Shown here: positions 7,477 through 64,000 of the stretch, in pieces
Numbering within the stretch: the stretch's first letter is position 1
Layout: the number at the start of each line of letters is the position of its first letter
Assembly: GCF_000063445.1 (NCBI RefSeq)
Contig: NC_009464.1
Location: 248,001 to 312,000 of the forward strand
Length of the DNA stretch: 64,000 nt
Source: Methanocella arvoryzae MRE50
GTDB lineage: Archaea > Halobacteriota > Methanocellia > Methanocellales > Methanocellaceae
Direction of reading: 5' to 3'
The notes under the pieces: model-generated
Database searches by the model: none
What the model was told of the DNA's origin: nothing
What the model saw: the letters and a program-made list of their open reading frames with translations, nothing else
Made by a program: the position numbers and the translations under genes

Positions 7477-8334
7477 TTGTATAACATTGTCTCTAAAACA
7501 GAGCTCGCCACCTTTACCACTCAGCTGGTAGTGGAGGCTCCGGACGTAGCCCGAAAAGCGCAGGCCGGACAGTTCGTCGTAGTCAGAGCCGGTGAAAAGG
7601 GAGAGCGCATACCCCTTACTATAGCCGACTATGACAGGGAAAAGGGGACCATCACGATGGTAATCCAGCCAGTCGGCAGCTCTACGGGCAAAATTTGTTC
7701 CCTTTGCGAAGGTAGCAACCTGCACGATGTGGCGGGCCCGCTGGGAAATGCTAGCGAAATTATCGAAAACGGCCTCGTCGTCTGCATAGGAGGCGGTATC
7801 GGCATCGCCCCGATCTACCCCATAGCCAGAGAATTCAAGGCCCGCGGCAACAAGGTGATCTCAATCATAGGTGCAAGAAGCGCAGAATACCTCTTCTGGG
7901 AAGACAAGCTCAGGGCAGTCAGCGATGAGCTGCACGTGGCTACGGACGACGGATCGAAGGGAATAAAGGGCTTTGTCACCCAGCCCCTCGCCGACCTGAT
8001 CAGCTCCGGCATAAAGATCGACAGAGTGATCGCGATCGGACCGCTCATCATGATGAAAAATATTGCTAATGCCACCAGGCCTCACGGGATCAAGACAATA
8101 GTCAGCCTGAACCCGATCATGGTAGACGGGACAGGCATGTGCGGCTCGTGCAGGGTCAGCGTCGGCGGCCAGACTAAGTTCTCCTGCGTCGACGGCCCGG
8201 AGTTCGACGCCCACCTCGTAGATTTTGATGGCCTGATGGCCAGAGGGCGGATGTATGGCGAAGAGGAAAAAGTGTCGACTGAGAGATACCAGCACGAGAA
8301 AAACGGGGTGCCACTATGCCTGACAAGGAGATAA
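7477..8334 (+). CDS. nfnA: Ferredoxin-NADP+ transhydrogenase subunit A (NfnA/SudB type)
   Basis: 285 residues with an FAD-binding barrel (RIPLTIADYDREKG), a nucleotide-binding segment (CIGGGIGIAPIYPIAREF, about residue 105) and a C-terminal Cys cluster (MCGSCRVSVGG...FSC) that ligates a [2Fe-2S] cluster. This is the layout of the small subunit of NADH-dependent reduced ferredoxin:NADP+ oxidoreductase and sulfide dehydrogenase. The translation start is TTG, supported by GGAAGGAG six bases upstream. The gene overlaps the next by 19 bases, and the two products form the heterodimer. In a methanogen the pair would link ferredoxin and NADPH pools; the actual physiological direction is inferred. Confidence 0.88.
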   Translation: MYNIVSKTELATFTTQLVVEAPDVARKAQAGQFVVVRAGEKGERIPLTIADYDREKGTITMVIQPVGSSTGKICSLCEGSNLHDVAGPLGNASEIIENGLVVCIGGGIGIAPIYPIAREFKARGNKVISIIGARSAEYLFWEDKLRAVSDELHVATDDGSKGIKGFVTQPLADLISSGIKIDRVIAIGPLIMMKNIANATRPHGIKTIVSLNPIMVDGTGMCGSCRVSVGGQTKFSCVDGPEFDAHLVDFDGLMARGRMYGEEEKVSTERYQHEKNGVPLCLTRR

Positions 8335-9716
8335 TCGACAGGCGTCACCGGATCGATCCGAAAGAGCAGGAGCCGGCAGAGCGTATTAAAAACTTCGACG
8401 AGGTTGCAAGCACCTACACCGAAGAAGAAGCACTTGCAGAAGCCAAACGTTGCCTCAAGTGCAAGACTCCGATGTGCATCGAAGGCTGCCCGGTAGGCAT
8501 TGACATCCGGCAGTTCATCGACGAGATCAAGCAGGGCAAATTTGAAGACGCGGCCCGGACAATCAAGGCTAAGAACAGCCTTCCGGCCATCTGTGGCCGA
8601 GTCTGCCCCCAGGAATCCCAGTGTGAAAAGCTCTGTATCCTGAGCATGAAGTGGACTCCCGTAGCCATAGGCCGCCTGGAGCGGTTTGCCGCCGAGCATG
8701 AAAAACAGGGTGAAAAGCCAGTTATCCCTGAATGGAACGGCAAGAAAGTCGCCGTCATCGGCTCAGGCCCCGCAGGACTCACGGCAGCCGGCGAACTGGC
8801 TAAGATGGGCTACAAGGTCGTCATCTTCGAAGCGCTGCATACCGCAGGCGGAGTATTGACCTACGGCATCCCCGAGTTCAGGCTGCCGAAGGACATCGTG
8901 GCAAAAGAAGTAGACTACGTCAAGAGCCTCGGCGTAGAGATCCGGCTCAACCAGATCGTGGGCAAGACTATCACGATCGACGAAATGCTGAAAGAGTACG
9001 ACGCAGTCTTCATCGGCAGCGGTGCCGGCCTCCCTGTGTTCATGGGCATACCCGGCGAGAACCTCTGCGGCGTCTACTCGGCCAACGAGTACCTGACCAG
9101 AGTCAACCTGATGAGGGCCTACCAGTTCCCCGAGCACGACACGCCGATCAAGAAGAGCAACAAGGTCGCTGTCGTCGGCGGCGGCAACGTCGCCATGGAC
9201 GCGGCAAGGACTGCCAGAAGGCTCGGAGCCCACGTCTACCTGATTTACCGCAGGGGCGAAGAGGAGATGCCCGCGAGGCGCGAGGAAGTCATCCACGCTA
9301 GGGAAGAAGGCATCGAATTCAAACTGCTCACCAACCCGACGAAAGTGGTCGGAGATGAAAAAGGCTGGGTCAAAGGCATCGAAGTCATCACAATGCAGCT
9401 GACTGAGCCCGATGCCTCAGGCCGCAGAAAGCCTGTACCGGTCAAAGGCAGCGAGACCGTAATCGACGTCGACACAGTCATCATCGCCATCGGCACCTCG
9501 CCGAACCCCCTGCTCGTAAAGACGACCCCAGGCCTCAAGACCAACGGCCACGGCGGCCTGGAAGTGGACGGCTACTCGTTCATGACCTCCAGAGAGGGAG
9601 TATTTGCAGGTGGCGACGCAGTGTCCGGATCGGCCACAGTCATCAGCGCCATGGGTCAGGCAAAGGAAGCTGCAGAGGCGATTGACGAATATATTAAAGC
9701 AAAGTGCAAAAGATAG
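8316..9716 (+). CDS. nfnB: Ferredoxin-NADP+ transhydrogenase subunit B / GltD-like (NfnB/SudA)
   Basis: 466 residues, homologous to the glutamate synthase small subunit. An N-terminal Fe-S domain has CLKCKTPMCIEGCPVGIDI and CGRVCPQESQCEKLC motifs. Two dinucleotide-binding folds follow: GSGPAGLTAAGELAKMGY for FAD (about residue 150) and VVGGGNVAMDAARTARRLGA for NADPH (about residue 288). No glutamate synthase large subunit is adjacent, whereas the NfnA partner overlaps directly upstream. A flavin-based transhydrogenase is therefore the better reading than glutamate synthase. T-rich sequence at 9731-9753 follows the stop. Confidence 0.9.
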   Translation: MPDKEIIDRRHRIDPKEQEPAERIKNFDEVASTYTEEEALAEAKRCLKCKTPMCIEGCPVGIDIRQFIDEIKQGKFEDAARTIKAKNSLPAICGRVCPQESQCEKLCILSMKWTPVAIGRLERFAAEHEKQGEKPVIPEWNGKKVAVIGSGPAGLTAAGELAKMGYKVVIFEALHTAGGVLTYGIPEFRLPKDIVAKEVDYVKSLGVEIRLNQIVGKTITIDEMLKEYDAVFIGSGAGLPVFMGIPGENLCGVYSANEYLTRVNLMRAYQFPEHDTPIKKSNKVAVVGGGNVAMDAARTARRLGAHVYLIYRRGEEEMPARREEVIHAREEGIEFKLLTNPTKVVGDEKGWVKGIEVITMQLTEPDASGRRKPVPVKGSETVIDVDTVIIAIGTSPNPLLVKTTPGLKTNGHGGLEVDGYSFMTSREGVFAGGDAVSGSATVISAMGQAKEAAEAIDEYIKAKCKR

Positions 9717-9730
9717 TAAATTTTATATCG

Positions 9731-9753
9731 AACTATTTTTAATCGTTTTTTTT
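9731..9753 (+). terminator. T-rich terminator after nfnB
   Basis: Two oligo-T runs (ATTTTTAATCGTTTTTTTT) lie just downstream of the nfnB stop without a preceding strong hairpin. This is the common archaeal U-tract type of terminator. Assignment is by position and composition only. Confidence 0.45.
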
Positions 9754-9823
9754 CAAAAGCTAACGACTAATAAGACATATATAAGCTTATTTTGATGAAA
9801 TTACTTAAAATTCAATTGAGTAA

Positions 9824-10025
9824 GATATAAATAGTAAGCAAGCTATTACCTAGCTAAAGTCCAAAAATATGATACATGGGTACAGCACCCGTCCAAGAGT
9901 AACTGTAACCCATAGCCAAAAGGCAAGAAAGTGTTAGTGTTCAATGTTATTTATAACTAACCTGCTTGCCTCCTTAAAAACTTGGCATGATCGCTCATGC
10001 TTTTAAAGACTAAATGAGGAACGAT
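9824..10025 (+). promoter_or_regulatory. TATA element and structured 5' leader of secreted-protein gene
   Basis: A TATA-like AGATATAAATA (about 9825-9835) would start transcription near 9858. The leader then contains two predicted hairpins. The first pairs ATGGGTACAG (9876-9885) with CTGTAACCCAT (9903-9913), one bulge. The second pairs AGGCAAG (9921-9927) with CTTGCCT (9965-9971), continued by GTTAG (9933-9937) with CTAAC (9957-9961). An SD GAGGA precedes the ATG at 10026. No known riboswitch class was recognised. Confidence 0.45.
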
Positions 10026-11051
10026 ATGATTAATTGGAGTAAAATCCTTTGCGTACCTACTGCCCTAATGTTGCTCATGGCACTAACCGTTGTACCGACA
10101 GTGGCAACAAATACAACTTCGGATGAAATGGTTGAAAAAAAATTAAAAATAGATCCTGCAGTTGTAGATAAGGCTACACATGAATTTTTATCTGGAAAGA
10201 CCGATAAATTAGTTATTCCCGGAGCGATAATCGATACAACTCCAGCAAAGAAACCAAATGACACTGAAATATACCCTGAATTACCGCTACCTATTCAGCA
10301 AGACACCAATACAACAAACGGCTTGATGAGTATTCAAAGCTCTGGTCTTCAGGTAAATCCCAGCTATAATTCAAACTGGGATATTATATATATGGTGTTT
10401 GGAATTAACAGCAAATATGTATCTTCTTGTGGTGCTAGGGTTTATAATTTGAATAATTTGCAGGATGCAAATGCTGGAGACTTTGATGAGTATGTAATGC
10501 ATTTGTATGGTTATCCTGTAAACAACCAACGGCAAGAAAATTGTATTCAAATGATTAGGGATGGAAATAATATAAGGTTTAATATCATGGTCGATTATAA
10601 TTTTGTCGATCATTGGGATCATCCTTCAGATCATACATACTCCCTAATGATTAAGGCAAATAATGCAGCTGGAAGTAGAGACTTTAATAGCATAACATAT
10701 GGTATATTGGATATGAATACCGGTGATCAATATTATCGTACGTTTAATACGCCCCATACACAACAATGTGATTTAGCTGATATGGCAATAGAGAAGTATT
10801 ACTATCACGATGGATATGATAACGACCTACCGCCTAGTGTATCTTGGAAAGCCGCCTCGGATTTCTATTGTTATGACTATAATAATAGAATAATTAACCT
10901 AATAAACGGGGAAATTAATAGCTTAACTACTGGCGGTACTGCAAATGCGTGGTATTATGACTTCTACGATTACCTGTTTAATACCAATGGGAAGGTAAAC
11001 TTATATATGACAAGATATAACCCCGCCACCCCATACCCAGCACATCCATAG
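10026..11051 (+). CDS. Secreted protein of unknown function, AT-rich gene
   Basis: 341 residues with a classical signal peptide (INWSKILCVPTALMLLMALTVVPTVA), then a Thr/Asp/Pro-rich segment and an Asn/Tyr-rich extracellular domain (about residues 110-340) with sequences such as YYYHDGYDNDLPPSVSW. No catalytic motif or named family was recognised. The gene is much more AT-rich than its neighbours, and codon use (many AAT, ATA, TAT) differs from the GC-rich genes on both sides, suggesting recent acquisition. The ATG at 10026 is preferred over 10014 because GAGGA sits at proper spacing. A structured leader precedes it. Confidence 0.65.
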   Translation: MINWSKILCVPTALMLLMALTVVPTVATNTTSDEMVEKKLKIDPAVVDKATHEFLSGKTDKLVIPGAIIDTTPAKKPNDTEIYPELPLPIQQDTNTTNGLMSIQSSGLQVNPSYNSNWDIIYMVFGINSKYVSSCGARVYNLNNLQDANAGDFDEYVMHLYGYPVNNQRQENCIQMIRDGNNIRFNIMVDYNFVDHWDHPSDHTYSLMIKANNAAGSRDFNSITYGILDMNTGDQYYRTFNTPHTQQCDLADMAIEKYYYHDGYDNDLPPSVSWKAASDFYCYDYNNRIINLINGEINSLTTGGTANAWYYDFYDYLFNTNGKVNLYMTRYNPATPYPAHP

Positions 11052-41024: not shown

Positions 41025-41477
41025 CCTGGCGCTCAGCGGATGTCCCCGACCGCTTTTGTGTTCCATGAAAAATCTGGGTCAGGGAGGTATTGAGAGGTCG
41101 GAGGGGAGGTCGGAGAGGTTCATGGAGTTCAGAGAGAACGTTCAAGCTGGGAGGTCAGGGAGGTCATGGAGGTCAGAGAGGAGGTTATGTGAGGCACCAG
41201 GAGGTCAGAGAGAATATCTTTAAAAAATCCTCCCAAACCTTTCCACACTCCCCAACCTCCTCTCAGACCTCGATACCCTCTCCAACCTCCCAGCTTGAAA
41301 ATCCTCCCCCGCCTCCCGGGAACTCCCCGACCTCCAGGAGTTTTTCACCGGCTTAAATAGAAAAACCAGTTTTCATGAGACGAGTGCTTAGAGGTCTCGC
41401 CCAGGCTGTTCTGTTTCGAATAAATAAAATAGTTCTGCCAGCTGGCATTTGTAATGCCGGGCTGGCAGATAATGCAC
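41025..41477. repeat. Purine-rich / pyrimidine-rich inverted element
   Basis: The 453-base gap has no convincing gene. From about 41078 to 41212 the plus strand is dominated by GGAGGTC/GGGAGGTCAGAGAGG units. From about 41225 to 41345 it is the complementary CCTCC/ACCTCC type. CAAGCTGGGAGGT (about 41144-41156) is matched perfectly by ACCTCCCAGCTTG (about 41284-41296). The whole forms an imperfect hairpin of about 250 bases with homopurine/homopyrimidine character. Confidence 0.65.
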
Positions 41478-59014: not shown

Positions 59015-60676
59015 CTACTTCAGGGCAGCGATCTCCATTTCAAAGGCCGCAACAGGCATTTCTATACCCCAGCTCTTGAGGACTACGGGACTGAGCTCGC
59101 CGATGATGCCGACCTTTTTGTCCCCAATCCTTACCTCGGCACAACGGCCGGGGATGAAGGAGGGGTGTTCCGCCGCAACGGTCTTGAGCTCGTCAAGCTT
59201 GCCGAAATTCGCGCACAGCGACTGCAGCTTCACTTTGATCTCGTTGAACCCGGCTTTAGCATAGCACAGAGTACAGGCGACATGGTCAATTTCTTTGACG
59301 CCGGTGTTCTCAGCGCTGTCCAGATGAGCGACGGTGCCTACCTCAAAGATATTCTGCGGGTAGTCCCTGTGCAGGTTGTTGGAGAGCACGATCATTAGCG
59401 ATGGTATCAAAGACGTCCTGACGATGTTGTACTGCTCTGCGTAGGGGTTGGAGATCTCGACGGCCGTACCGTCATCCGGGAGGTTCATCTTCCCGAAGAC
59501 CTCGTCCTTGCCGATCAGGATGAAGTTGAAAGTATCCTGGCAGCCCAGGCCGATCATGGTGTTCCGGATGGCATCGCCGAGCTTCGTAGCTTCTGTCAGC
59601 TTGCCCACTGAAGGCGTGTTCGGGTACGACGGAGTGATGTTGTTGTAGCCGAAAGCCCTGCCCACGTCATCTACTACGTCCCTCTTATGCAGGATGTCAG
59701 CGCGGTATGGCGGCACTTCGACGATCAGGTAATCGCTCCCGGTTTCGGCCACTTTGAAGCCCATGCGCTCCAGCAGGGCCTTTATGTCAGGGGCAGTCAG
59801 CTCGAGGCCGAGGACACGGTTGACGTAGTCGACCTCTATGTCGATGTTGCGGACGTTAAAGTCAGGCCTGTGCAGCGTCTCGTCCGGATACACGACGTCT
59901 ATACTGTAGATGGAAGCACCCCTGAGATCCAGAGAGTACAGGACGATGTTGAGCATGTAGTCGATAGTCCGCAGGTCCTCGCCAGTCAGCTCGATGAGCA
60001 GATCATGAGTATTCAGAGTTACCTCGGTGCGCTTCGAGTTAATGATGGGAGGGAACGAGAAAATACCCTCGTCGTCGGTGATGATCGGCATCAGATTCTT
60101 GCCTTCCAGCACGTACCGGTAGTCGATGCCTTTCGGGTGTCTGGCCAGGACATCGGAGAGCGTCATAAGCTCATCGCTCTGCAGCGGCACGAACTTGACA
60201 CTGTCCCCCGGCACTGCCCGGTAGTGAATCTCCCTGCCTTTGATCTTCGACAGATCGTGAACGCCGACTGCGCCCTTCTTCCGCTTGCGACCGAATGTGC
60301 CGTGCAGCTTTTCCTGCAGGTGCATCAGAGACTTTATCGACTCGTCGGTGAACTGCACGTTCCTGACGATGGCGCCGGTGACGTACGGCCTGACAGGCTC
60401 GACTTCCCGGTTGACGATCAGCTTGTAGCCGGAGGGCTGGAGCTTCGGGATTCTAAAGCCTGTTTCGATGCTATAGTAAGCCCGGAGCATCCTGGCGATG
60501 CCCTCTTCCGAGAGCAGGTCAGCACGGTCGCTGGTCACCTCGAAGGTGACTTCGTCGCCCTGGATGTCTTCGGTCTCGCTGCCGAGCTCGAACATGACTT
60601 CCCGGACCTTGTCCAGGCTGAGATCGATGCCGATGAGCTTGACGAGATCTGGATAGTTGAGGGTTACTGTTGCCAT
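59015..60676 (-). CDS. pheT: Phenylalanyl-tRNA synthetase beta subunit
   Basis: 553 residues, archaeal/eukaryotic-type PheT. Domain order: N-terminal B1 (TLNYPDLVKLIGIDLSLDKV), B3/B4 tRNA-editing module, B5 (MGFKVAETGSDYLIVEVPPYRADIL) and the catalytic-like core (VVDDVGRAFGYNNITPSYPN, GCQDTFNFILIGKDE, NLPDDGTAVEISNPYAEQYN). PheT pairs with PheS to form the (alpha-beta)2 enzyme; pheS is not in the window. A TATA-like element TTTTATAAAAG (about 60721-60731) precedes the gene. Confidence 0.95.
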   Translation of the reverse strand: MATVTLNYPDLVKLIGIDLSLDKVREVMFELGSETEDIQGDEVTFEVTSDRADLLSEEGIARMLRAYYSIETGFRIPKLQPSGYKLIVNREVEPVRPYVTGAIVRNVQFTDESIKSLMHLQEKLHGTFGRKRKKGAVGVHDLSKIKGREIHYRAVPGDSVKFVPLQSDELMTLSDVLARHPKGIDYRYVLEGKNLMPIITDDEGIFSFPPIINSKRTEVTLNTHDLLIELTGEDLRTIDYMLNIVLYSLDLRGASIYSIDVVYPDETLHRPDFNVRNIDIEVDYVNRVLGLELTAPDIKALLERMGFKVAETGSDYLIVEVPPYRADILHKRDVVDDVGRAFGYNNITPSYPNTPSVGKLTEATKLGDAIRNTMIGLGCQDTFNFILIGKDEVFGKMNLPDDGTAVEISNPYAEQYNIVRTSLIPSLMIVLSNNLHRDYPQNIFEVGTVAHLDSAENTGVKEIDHVACTLCYAKAGFNEIKVKLQSLCANFGKLDELKTVAAEHPSFIPGRCAEVRIGDKKVGIIGELSPVVLKSWGIEMPVAAFEMEIAALK

Positions 60677-61004
60677 ACGACATTACACGCCCAGTGTTAC
60701 AGTTGCTTTTTCAGCTTCCACTTTTATAAAAGTCTGCCCAAAAAAAGCGCCGCCTACGGCGGGTGCTCGCTGCGCTGCGCATTTCGCGAACTGCGCGAAA
60801 TCACAAAGTCCCATACAAGAAGCTTGAAAACGCTGTACATCTAGACACATACATGCTTGAAAATGCTGTAATACAATATTAAACCTACGGACTACAACAT
60901 AAGGTTATGTTAATACTTATTCAAACCCCCACAGCCATTCTTGTAACAGCATATTAGGAATCTGACCAATCTTTTTATATACACATCATTGCAAATAAAT
61001 AGCT
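60677..61004. other. Boundary region between pheT and the accessory element
   Basis: 328 bases without a gene. Contains a hairpin ATTTCGCG/CGCGAAAT (about 60781-60801), a GC-rich run with GCGC repeats just before it, and two direct copies of GCTTGAAAA(C/T)GCTGTA (about 60822-60870). A TATA element (about 60972-60982) serves the small ORF at 61005. Confidence 0.45.
60740..60762 (-). terminator. Hairpin + T-run between element end and pheT
   Basis: On the minus strand CCGCC and GGCGG (60762-60758 and 60754-60750) form a stem around GTA, followed after CGC by a T7 run (60746-60740). It may terminate transcripts coming from the accessory region before pheT. Confidence 0.6.
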
Positions 61005-61127
61005 ATGAAACGCCTTCGTTATAATGATAAAGTACGAGTAATCGGTCGAATCATTGGCGAAGAGAGAACCGTTGAATTTATACTAAAATGTAAAAAAGCA
61101 GAATCGATTAAAACGAATAAAAAATAA
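61005..61127 (+). CDS. Small basic ORF (40 aa), possible
   Basis: 40 codons starting MKRLRYNDKVRVIGRIIG and ending in a Lys-rich tail (KCKKAESIKTNKK). CTTTTTATATACAC, a good TATA box, lies about 25 bases upstream of the ATG, as for a leaderless archaeal transcript. No family recognised. It might be an element-encoded mini-protein. Confidence 0.4.
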   Translation: MKRLRYNDKVRVIGRIIGEERTVEFILKCKKAESIKTNKK

Positions 61128-61132
61128 TAACA

Positions 61133-61270
61133 TCAAGTGAACGTTGCAACACGTTCCCTCTCCGGCCTTCCATGCTCCTCGCAGCACTCAAAACAAAAGT
61201 ACGATACCGTACCCTTCCGCTCTAAAGCCACGGCCTTCTCAGTCTGCTTATCGCAGATTTTACACTTCAT
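61133..61270 (-). CDS. Small zinc-finger-like protein (45 aa)
   Basis: 45 residues, MKCKICDKQTEKAVALE...YFCFECCEEHG, with CxxC and CFECC pairs making a likely zinc site. Strong ribosome site GGGAAGGGA before the ATG. Tiny zinc-finger proteins of this kind are common in archaeal plasmids and viruses. It is the third gene of a minus-strand set (61133, 61339, 61479). Confidence 0.55.
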   Translation of the reverse strand: MKCKICDKQTEKAVALERKGTVSYFCFECCEEHGRPERERVATFT

Positions 61271-61338
61271 CGTTTTTCCCTTCCCGTTTTTATCGGTGCT
61301 ACGCCCAGGCCGGGCATGCCGCCCTGGGCTCCGCCCCG

Positions 61339-61479
61339 CTACTTATTGCGCCTTATCGCCCCGTCCATCTCATACACCCGAGTACAATACCACGATACGC
61401 AGTAGTGTTCCCCGGTGATAGGGTCAACAAAACCATAAGCACAATCCCGGCAAACATACGGTATTGCCGGCAAAGCCAT
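61339..61479 (-). CDS. Small cysteine-rich protein (46 aa)
   Basis: 46 residues, MALPAIPYVCRDCAYGFVD...HYCVSWYCTRVYEM, with a CxxC pair and a later C...C pair as a possible zinc knuckle. Its ATG overlaps the TGA stop of the upstream 80-residue gene (TGATG), so the two are translationally coupled. No family recognised. Confidence 0.55.
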   Translation of the reverse strand: MALPAIPYVCRDCAYGFVDPITGEHYCVSWYCTRVYEMDGAIRRNK

Positions 61480-61721
61480 CAGACAGCCTCTTCAACAGCA
61501 AGCTCATCAACAAACTTCTGAAACTTCTCATCACCCTTGTAAGCATTCATCAGCTTAACAATCAGAGACGCAGGCATCTTAACCGGAAACTTGCCAAGAC
61601 CAGTAATCTTTATACACTTCGAAGTCTCGACATTCTCACCAGTTTTAGACGATACAAACTTGTACGCCGGGTGACACTCAATATTGCCACCAAGATACTG
61701 TATTGTGTGTTTAAATTCCAT
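61479..61721 (-). CDS. Hypothetical protein (80 aa) of accessory element
   Basis: 80 residues, MEFKHTIQYLGGNIECHPAYK at the start, then a basic segment (KITGLGKFPVKMPASLIVKLM) and an acidic C-terminus (FQKFVDELAVEEAV). AGAGGA lies five bases before the ATG. Coupled to the next small gene. Likely a plasmid or proviral gene; the function is unknown. Confidence 0.6.
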   Translation of the reverse strand: MEFKHTIQYLGGNIECHPAYKFVSSKTGENVETSKCIKITGLGKFPVKMPASLIVKLMNAYKGDEKFQKFVDELAVEEAV

Positions 61722-62404
61722 GTTTTTCCTCTTGGGCTTTCTGCGCCCGCCCCGTACTTAGCAATTTAACTTATTTAATCGTTTTCTAGGAAACAGAGAC
61801 TAATATATTGTCCTTTTTCCATTTGGAGCCTGTATAATCGTCCATTGTCAAACCAATTAATTCCACATTGGTTAAGAAGTGTTTGCACAGAATAGGGTCG
61901 GCGTTCGAAAACCGAGAAGCCTTAATACACCAAAAAGCGCTTAACGGTTTTGCGGGAAGGAAGTACAACGGCGAAAGGCTATACCCTAAGTTTATTTGTG
62001 GCAGCAAAGCTGCCACGCTCCACGCCGCAAACGGGGCGGCGTTCCGCACTAGGGTATACCCTTCCGCCGTTCTACGTACTTCCTTCCCCCAAAACCTACG
62101 CTTTTCGGTGTTTAAGGCTTTCGGCTTTCGCCCGCCTTGCAAAAGAAGTTGTATCGGAGAGCGTAGCAGGGCGGGAAGGAAATACAAGCGGCTCAGGCTG
62201 CCCCTTGTTTATATAAATATATTAATATGTGTATTCATATTTGTGATTAGTTAATCGAAATCACTTTCTGACCAACAATTAATTTTCGCAGCATTATTTG
62301 TTATCCCAATACGATTATTGTAGATTCTTGCTACCATATTGTAAATTGGGTGGTTATATATACTATTGGTTAAGTATTAATGGGTATTGTTGGAGGCATC
62401 TTAG
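61722..62404. other. Gap with large inverted-repeat structure
   Basis: 683 bases. Open frames on both strands here are by-products of the inverted repeat. The repeat is described separately. Downstream, TATATATACTA (about 62353-62363) is the likely promoter of the lipoprotein gene. Confidence 0.5.
61900..62134. repeat. Large imperfect inverted repeat with two internal perfect hairpins
   Basis: The left arm (about 61900-61986) and right arm (about 62051-62134) are near-complementary along more than 80 bases: for example AAGCCTTAA(T)ACACC (61918-61931) with GGTGTTTAAGGCTT (62107-62120), and GGGAAGGAAGTAC (61954-61966) with GTACTTCCTTCCC (62076-62088). Between the arms are GTGGCAGC/GCTGCCAC (61998-62016) and ACGCCGC/GCGGCGT (62022-62042). 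Together they make a three-way-junction fold. Confidence 0.75.
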
Positions 62405-63292
62405 TTGAAAGTGTCTTTTAGATATATATCTATATTTATTGTAGTCTTATCAGCTATAATGATAACTGGTTGTACAGGTTCACAAGTGGTTAGTTCAAAT
62501 AGCGATACACAACCGAGTCAACAACACCCAATATATCAACAATTGACTACACCTACACCTACACAAGCCCCTACAGTAGATCCAACAATCGCTTTAAGAC
62601 AAAATGCTTTAAGTGATTATCAGTCGAAAATTAGTATAGTCTCCATAGAACAACAATCTTTAGATAATTATGTAAATACACCATACACATACGTTGATCT
62701 TAATGATTATAAAACGTGGATTGATAACTACAATATAAAAGCATCATCGTATCAACAAAAATGTTACGATGCGATATCATCTGGAAACATTTATCTCCAA
62801 TATTTAACAGTAGGAAATGACGAGTATAATAGAGTAAAACAAAATGAAGCTACTTTTTCTAGCAACATTCAAATATATAATAATAATTACAACCAATTTA
62901 TATCAGACTACAATAAGAAAAAGGCAACAAATGATGCATATAATAATTATGAATCTAAATTACGTGTTGTACAATCCACATCTCAAGACTTACAAGATTA
63001 TGTAAATTCATCAACAATATTTTCTGCCCTTAGTAGTAGCTATATAGAAGGTTTTAATACAAAAGTTACTGCTTACGCCACAGCTTGTGATAACGCTGTT
63101 TATGCAGGCCAAGAATATCAGAAATTTTTAGACCCAGGAAGTACAGCATATAACCAAGTTTCAAGTATCAATACCGAATTAACAAATTCAGCAGCCGAAT
63201 TGAGGAAGACAAACGAAGAAGTCCAGAAAGACAGCTCGTATTTGTCTGCGTTAACATCATTAATAAAAATTCTTCCGATGTTAGCCGTATGA
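62405..63292 (+). CDS. Lipoprotein with duplicated helical domain, AT-rich gene
   Basis: 295 residues starting with TTG (GGAGG upstream). Signal and lipobox: IVVLSAIMITGCTGS. After a Thr/Pro-rich linker come two homologous segments of about 100 residues each: one beginning DYQSKISIVSIEQQSLDNYV and one beginning NYESKLRVVQSTSQDLQDYV, each ending with a similar (V/A)GN(D)EYNRV or YQKFLDPGSTAYNQV stretch. Predicted mostly helical, perhaps coiled coil. The gene is far more AT-rich than pheT or other chromosomal genes. Confidence 0.65.
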   Translation: MKVSFRYISIFIVVLSAIMITGCTGSQVVSSNSDTQPSQQHPIYQQLTTPTPTQAPTVDPTIALRQNALSDYQSKISIVSIEQQSLDNYVNTPYTYVDLNDYKTWIDNYNIKASSYQQKCYDAISSGNIYLQYLTVGNDEYNRVKQNEATFSSNIQIYNNNYNQFISDYNKKKATNDAYNNYESKLRVVQSTSQDLQDYVNSSTIFSALSSSYIEGFNTKVTAYATACDNAVYAGQEYQKFLDPGSTAYNQVSSINTELTNSAAELRKTNEEVQKDSSYLSALTSLIKILPMLAV

Positions 63293-63333
63293 ACCACATT
63301 TTAAATTAAAAACAAATATTTTTTTAGTAAAAA

Positions 63334-64000
63334 TTATTCAAGTAGTTGTGTTAACTTCTCCAGCTTCCCCGGCTGCTTCAACAACTTCAATATCTGCCTG
63401 TCGGCTTCGGTTATCTCTTCCCTAAGCTCAGCCACGCCCTCTTTAAGCGACCGCCCGCACTTCGGACAATAATTAGCCAGGGAATCGCTAACCATCCCGC
63501 AAACGCATTTTTGCGGCTTAGTCATCGGCTTAGTCTCCACTTTCAACGATAAACCGGCCTTAGTCTTAATCTCATTCTGAATATCGCTATCAGCAAGCTT
63601 AACGTAAACCTCAAACATTTGAGTCTCGACTTTCTGCCACATCATCTTTTTAATGATGCTCTCTTTATACCCCTCTTTAATCATATTGGTAATACGAGAA
63701 GCCCGGAACAAATGTGGAGATAATGGCTTTTTCGTACCCGATGCCGCTATCAACTTTTCTAACAGAAACTGCACAGTCCGGTAAGATAACGGCTCTCCAA
63801 CATATCCGTTACTGTGAACCCTAAACACGAAATCGCTTTCTGTCGCCTCTGGCATATCGTTCCTTAACTGTATCAGGTAAGGAACAGAAGCAACGACATA
63901 CGGGTATCTATAACCGCCGACTTTCTCATCTTCAATTTGCGCCCGGCAATCCGTATCTGTAAAGGTTAAGTCCTTCCAGGTAACCCGCCCAATTTCGCCC
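63334..64000 (-). CDS. Tyrosine recombinase/integrase with C-terminal zinc ribbon, 5' end outside window
   Basis: 222 residues in the window; the frame stays open to the right edge. Visible are the box-I region GEIGRVTWKDLTF (its Arg just outside), HLFRASRITNM (H-x-x-R of box II), MMWQK, and the nucleophile region MFEVYVKL. The C-terminus has a zinc ribbon (CVCGMVSDSLANYCPKCGRSL) and a helical tail. Tyrosine recombinases move proviruses and integrative plasmids; together with the neighbouring small genes this marks an integrated element. Confidence 0.88.
   Translation of the reverse strand, partial: GEIGRVTWKDLTFTDTDCRAQIEDEKVGGYRYPYVVASVPYLIQLRNDMPEATESDFVFRVHSNGYVGEPLSYRTVQFLLEKLIAASGTKKPLSPHLFRASRITNMIKEGYKESIIKKMMWQKVETQMFEVYVKLADSDIQNEIKTKAGLSLKVETKPMTKPQKCVCGMVSDSLANYCPKCGRSLKEGVAELREEITEADRQILKLLKQPGKLEKLTQLLE

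Follow-up and report, generated by a model that had tools for sequence, protein, structure and literature searches.

A 237-bp three-way-junction palindrome in a small integrated element of Methanocella arvoryzae MRE50: a candidate replication-origin region

First insights into the replication origin of a methanogen mobile element come from one plasmid (PMC9569500). The small plasmid pC2A of Methanosarcina acetivorans encodes a tyrosine recombinase (ssrA) and a rolling-circle Rep (repA), and the direct and inverted repeats in the non-coding region between both genes were suggested to be a possible original or alternative single-strand origin (sso); pC2A-derived vectors for Methanosarcina replicate even without these repeats (PMC9569500). 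For the Sulfolobus plasmid pRN1, which is believed to replicate via a rolling circle, the origin is a 232-bp region with a 100-bp stem-loop that is essential for replication (PMC3869888).

The locus described here lies in a window of 64,000 bases, i.e. bases 248001-312000 of the single 3,179,916-base contig of Methanocella arvoryzae MRE50, to which all positions refer unless a locus label is given. It comprises a palindrome inside a small integrated element that, compared by description, resembles pC2A in its combination of a recombinase gene with repeats in a non-coding region. However, pC2A occurs as a free plasmid and has a repA of its own, and its 20-bp perfect inverted repeat is found beside long direct repeats in a region that can be deleted, whereas the Methanocella element is integrated and Rep-less and its palindrome measures 237 bp. 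Likewise by description, the palindrome can be likened to the structured archaeal plasmid origin of pRN1, which differs in having just one stem-loop, with a loop of 58 bases, and in lying downstream of a primase-polymerase gene, rather than being a multi-branched 237-bp palindrome. In the T-shaped terminal palindromes of parvoviruses, a long palindrome is closed by two small hairpins and serves as origin for an HUH-type Rep. The three-way junction is common to these and to the Methanocella palindrome, which is a resemblance only: the parvoviral palindromes form the ends of linear genomes, whereas the one discussed here is located inside an integrated element.

A first-pass annotation had placed a large inverted repeat at 61900-62134, which was right within 2 bases, the palindrome spanning 61900-62136 as a 237-bp minus-strand self-match. 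Arms of more than 80 bases with about 80% identity had been noted, and self-alignment gives a left arm of 89 nt (61900-61988) and a right arm of 87 nt (62050-62136) with 76 of 93 aligned columns identical (82%), the others being 7 mismatches and 10 gap columns. Both perfect GC-rich hairpins reported for the centre are exact in sequence: GTGGCAGC-AAA-GCTGCCAC at 61998-62016 has an 8-bp stem, and ACGCCGC (62022-62028) pairs with GCGGCGT (62036-62042) to give a 7-bp stem at 62022-62042. The folding proposed as a check was carried out and produced a three-way junction that closes the long stem on either strand. With flanks, the plus strand folds at about -137 kcal/mol (-136.6; z -11.8 versus dinucleotide shuffles), and the minus strand, folded as RNA, reaches about -159.5 to -161 kcal/mol (z -17.1 versus shuffles). 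Folded as DNA, the palindrome yields z -16.6, and none of the shuffles folded as well. The arm differences, by contrast, had been thought to look compensatory, which is not borne out: a single G-U occurs among the 93 pairs of the plus-strand fold, and there is no homologous sequence to show covariation.

The arm word GCGGGAAGGAAATACAAGCGGC, present at about 61952 (plus) and about 62096 (minus), recurs outside the arms as a direct repeat at 62171-62192 (plus; 94% over 17 nt, 91% over 22 nt, E 0.002), and this third copy is, judged from its sequence, a possible iteron-like unit. The palindrome is located in the gap 61722-62404 between two diverging genes from the open reading frame list, and hence is not a terminator. 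On one side, the first leftward gene (61479-61721, minus) encodes an 80-aa protein of unknown family, for which the single-sequence fold is unreliable (pLDDT 47). On the other, a gene directed away from the palindrome (62405-63292, plus) encodes a predicted lipoprotein of 295 aa that matched no family and is possible cargo.

The very stable minus-strand RNA fold (z -17) and the intergenic position would suit an RNA made by the element, be it a structured non-coding RNA or a regulatory RNA with a long hairpin. Yet the palindrome had no match among the Rfam 15 covariance models at either the gathering or the relaxed threshold, relatives' genomes, phages and plasmids contain no homologous sequence and hence no covariation, and the fold is equally exceptional as DNA. 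Such an RNA is possible, but unlikely.

A genome search with the palindrome identified it as single copy, and exact copies of the word GGGAAGGAARTAC are confined to its locus. No copy was found in the genomes of 60 relatives and no DNA match in phage and plasmid sequences, the two open reading frames crossing the palindrome matched no NCBIfam family, and the earlier statement that no family could be named for it was correct. Viral contigs searched with the Rep discussed below, the 80-aa protein, and alignments of Rep and of the recombinase contained zero relatives, and 81 single, scattered hits to a DNA pattern of 15 bases were obtained there, such a short pattern being expected to hit often in a collection of that size. 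A MITE requires several copies with target duplications; given the single copy and the absence of a target duplication at the palindrome ends (61900/62136), the MITE-like element considered in the first-pass annotation is rejected. Although dispersed palindrome families are abundant in this genome, membership in one of them is rejected as well, with 0 copies and 0 six-base repeats in the arm. Either of these two assignments is hardly credible.

Palindrome and fold scans covered 336 kb sampled from the genome, and all genome-wide figures are extrapolations. The sample contains about 20 imperfect palindromes with lengths of 124-357 bp, which extrapolates to perhaps 200 in the genome. Long imperfect palindromes also occur in two other Methanocella genomes, with up to about 500 bp (L061 1606-2118; L189 15605-16101) and an overall size range in Methanocella of 124-513 bp. 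Three genomes of the same phylum that are more distant, each sampled over 40 kb, had none, and 255 kb of other methanogen loci yielded only one, of 38 bp. Because long palindromes are this frequent in the genome, the length of the palindrome at 61900-62136 alone is not remarkable; its single copy, its lack of internal repeats and its position are. The other palindromes compared belong to families composed of short repeated words (CACAGAG, GCCAAG, GGAGGTCAGAGA and GTACACAAAG), with 3 to 15 further places in the sample and 3-53 six-base repeats in the arm versus 0 here; across the Methanocella genomes, ACAGATTCC is another such family word.

The family palindromes are perhaps more interesting than the palindrome at 61900-62136 itself. 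Sites include L176-L185, L017 12148-12277 and 13730-13982, as well as 41105-41335 of the window. Three long palindromes are preceded, at a distance of 19-45 bases, by a similar perfect-looking hairpin of 42-44 bp that starts with TCGCCTTGAGA (L180 10127-10168; L184 8329-8372 and 11294-11335).

The fold scan of the 336 kb returned 14 strongly structured sites, 12 of which have copies elsewhere in the sample. The only two copy-less ones are the palindrome and a site at L024 7841 (genome ~394 kb), both within integrated elements that have related tyrosine recombinases (46% identical). Of the 336 kb, these two elements account for about 11.5 kb; the other ~325 kb showed no copy-less site. Since the finding itself selected the first site, only the second one counts as independent evidence. 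The palindrome might still be neutral, having arisen a single time in either the element or its host through replication slippage or a strand switch, never selected, and persisting as harmless sequence. Ordinary intergenic DNA of the host is full of long imperfect palindromes, so the generating process is active here, no homolog with conserved pairing was found, and two related Rep-locus gaps have no palindrome (see below). All other strong palindromes compared, however, are multi-copy with internal short repeats, of which this one has neither, and the sole other copy-less site occupies the corresponding place of a sister element. A neutral origin is regarded as rather unlikely, albeit worth keeping in mind.

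The element itself is well delimited. It is flanked by pheT (59015-60676, minus) and pheS (64598-66085, minus), named from their sequence and operon, and by a 15-bp direct repeat that reads GTATGGCAACAGTAA on the coding strand, with the pheT-end copy at 60664-60678 (minus) and the partner at the pheS end at 64598-64612, just past the window end. In three of three relatives examined (G001, G002 and G003), the site is empty, and pheS and pheT overlap at the 15-bp word. This makes the insert an element of 3,934 bp (60664-64597, with the second repeat directly after it; 60664-64000 within the window) that restored both gene ends by duplicating 15 bp, and both coding ends are intact. A tyrosine recombinase gene (63334-64542, minus, beyond the window from 64000; 402 aa, PF00589, E 2e-19) starts 55 bp from the repeat at 64598. 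With a recombinase by its end, direct repeats and an empty site in relatives, this is a site-specific integrated element. It also holds some smaller open reading frames, and a Rep gene was found neither by tblastn nor with a three-Rep profile on six frames or by Pfam. As the insertion parts pheS from pheT, transcription of pheT must use an element promoter or read-through. To our knowledge, the pheS/pheT overlap is an unusual target, being a junction of protein genes in an essential operon that is restored by the 15-bp duplication, and a literature search yielded no paper that describes this element or archaeal integration at pheS/pheT.

The tyrosine recombinase also raises the question whether the palindrome is an accessory site of recombination, to which the recombinase or an excision factor would bind or which would aid the resolution of circle multimers, with the repeated word as a conceivable binding site. 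Arm sites of tyrosine recombinases are normally short and adjacent to att. The palindrome, in contrast, lacks the att word and is more than 1 kb away from both att repeats (60664 and 64598), which makes this role quite improbable.

The closest recombinases are those of an element at a tRNA-Gln gene of the same genome (46% identity) and of Methanocella sp. PtaU1.Bin125 (45%). The tRNA-Gln element (L024 4113-11680, genome 390113-397680; the tRNA was read by eye from the sequence) has 15-bp repeats at L024 4113 and 11666. An IS-like transposase gene (8451-10043) contributes to its size of about 7.55 kb, and the element further encodes the recombinase, a rolling-circle Rep (PF23343; L024 6938-7846) and an HNH-domain membrane protein. 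The Reps of both relatives match PF23343 REP_ORF2-G2P (E 4e-17 and 1e-13) as well as the PHROG family 'rolling circle DNA replication initiation'. Directly upstream of rep in the tRNA-Gln element, a structured region at L024 about 7861-8080 (z -8.2), strongly branched like the palindrome, occupies the same relative place as the palindrome, namely the gap before the first leftward gene. Hence, the two elements share a related recombinase, a 15-bp att repeat and a copy-less structured region. The tRNA-Gln element differs, however, in its Rep and HNH-domain protein, its larger size, and a structure with more hairpins and other sequence; no significant shared sequence was found between this structure and the palindrome. 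In both, the fold is better on the recombinase-coding strand (-161 versus -137 kcal/mol for the palindrome, -149 versus -138 kcal/mol for the tRNA-Gln element), a strand difference that rests on few mismatches.

A third Rep, in G003 (L061 8290-10444), is 77% identical to the tRNA-Gln Rep, has a broken frame and adjoins an unrelated recombinase, which suggests, from the sequence, an exchange of modules between elements. Outside the tRNA-Gln element, neither of the two Methanocella Rep loci has a palindrome or an unusual fold in its corresponding gap (z 0.5 and -1.5). At the more distant recombinase locus L063 (37%), the recombinase is closely followed downstream by a PF23343 Rep, and a series of GC-rich hairpins (z -3.3) lies between the two. 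The surroundings of 18 more distant recombinases contained no comparable palindrome. The palindrome gap shares no significant word with three Rep-adjacent gaps, and CTTGACCGTAT before rep is common only to the tRNA-Gln element and G003. CTTG words before rep are too short to be claimed as an origin motif.

Taken together, the palindrome itself is confirmed, and its most likely, albeit unproven, reading is that of a replication site. Among the candidates put forward in the first-pass annotation (a non-coding RNA, a MITE-like element, or a replication or recombination site), the last is best supported, by the bounded element and by the structure, of unrelated sequence, before a rolling-circle Rep in the related element; the MITE has dropped out, and the RNA has neither an Rfam match nor a homolog. 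More specifically, the palindrome may be the cis-acting region of a rolling-circle replication origin, belonging to a small integrative plasmid now without a Rep, a function to which we would give about half of our confidence. A stable stem-loop in a non-coding region, a trait of rolling-circle origins (dso/sso), is present at the palindrome (z about -17), and the second copy-less site in the sister element, its position before rep, the third arm word and the strand bias fit as well. Recombinase relatives carrying a Rep, i.e. the two Methanocella elements and L063, are supporting rather than defining. On the other side, the element lacks the Rep of a rolling-circle (HUH Rep) plasmid, the corresponding gaps of two Rep loci are not unusually folded, no nick site was identified, and the replication of the repeat-less pC2A vectors counts against an origin. 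Origins can differ to this extent, yet the absence of significant shared sequence between the palindrome and the sister structure makes the case weaker.

As a replication origin, the palindrome could act as follows. On the element in its circular form, a Rep would nick in or beside the palindrome region and displace the recombinase-coding strand. On the displaced strand, the palindrome would then fold as a single-strand origin and provide the primer site for the second strand; if Rep does displace this strand, its better fold is as expected. Alternatively, an extruded cruciform could itself be the double-strand origin. Because no Rep is recognisable in the element, it would be either a remnant or a satellite that is served in trans, for example by the Rep of the tRNA-Gln element. 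There is a slim chance that the latter holds in full. The element, a Rep-less integrative plasmid of less than 4 kb, would then be a replication satellite, its T-shaped palindromic origin being recognised by the Rep that a second resident element encodes, and one methanogen chromosome would harbour a helper-satellite pair of integrative plasmids with related recombinases.

Hardly any replication origin of a methanogen mobile element is known. With a small bounded element that has a candidate origin, and a Rep-bearing relative on the same chromosome, origin recognition and the sharing of a Rep would become directly testable in Methanocella.
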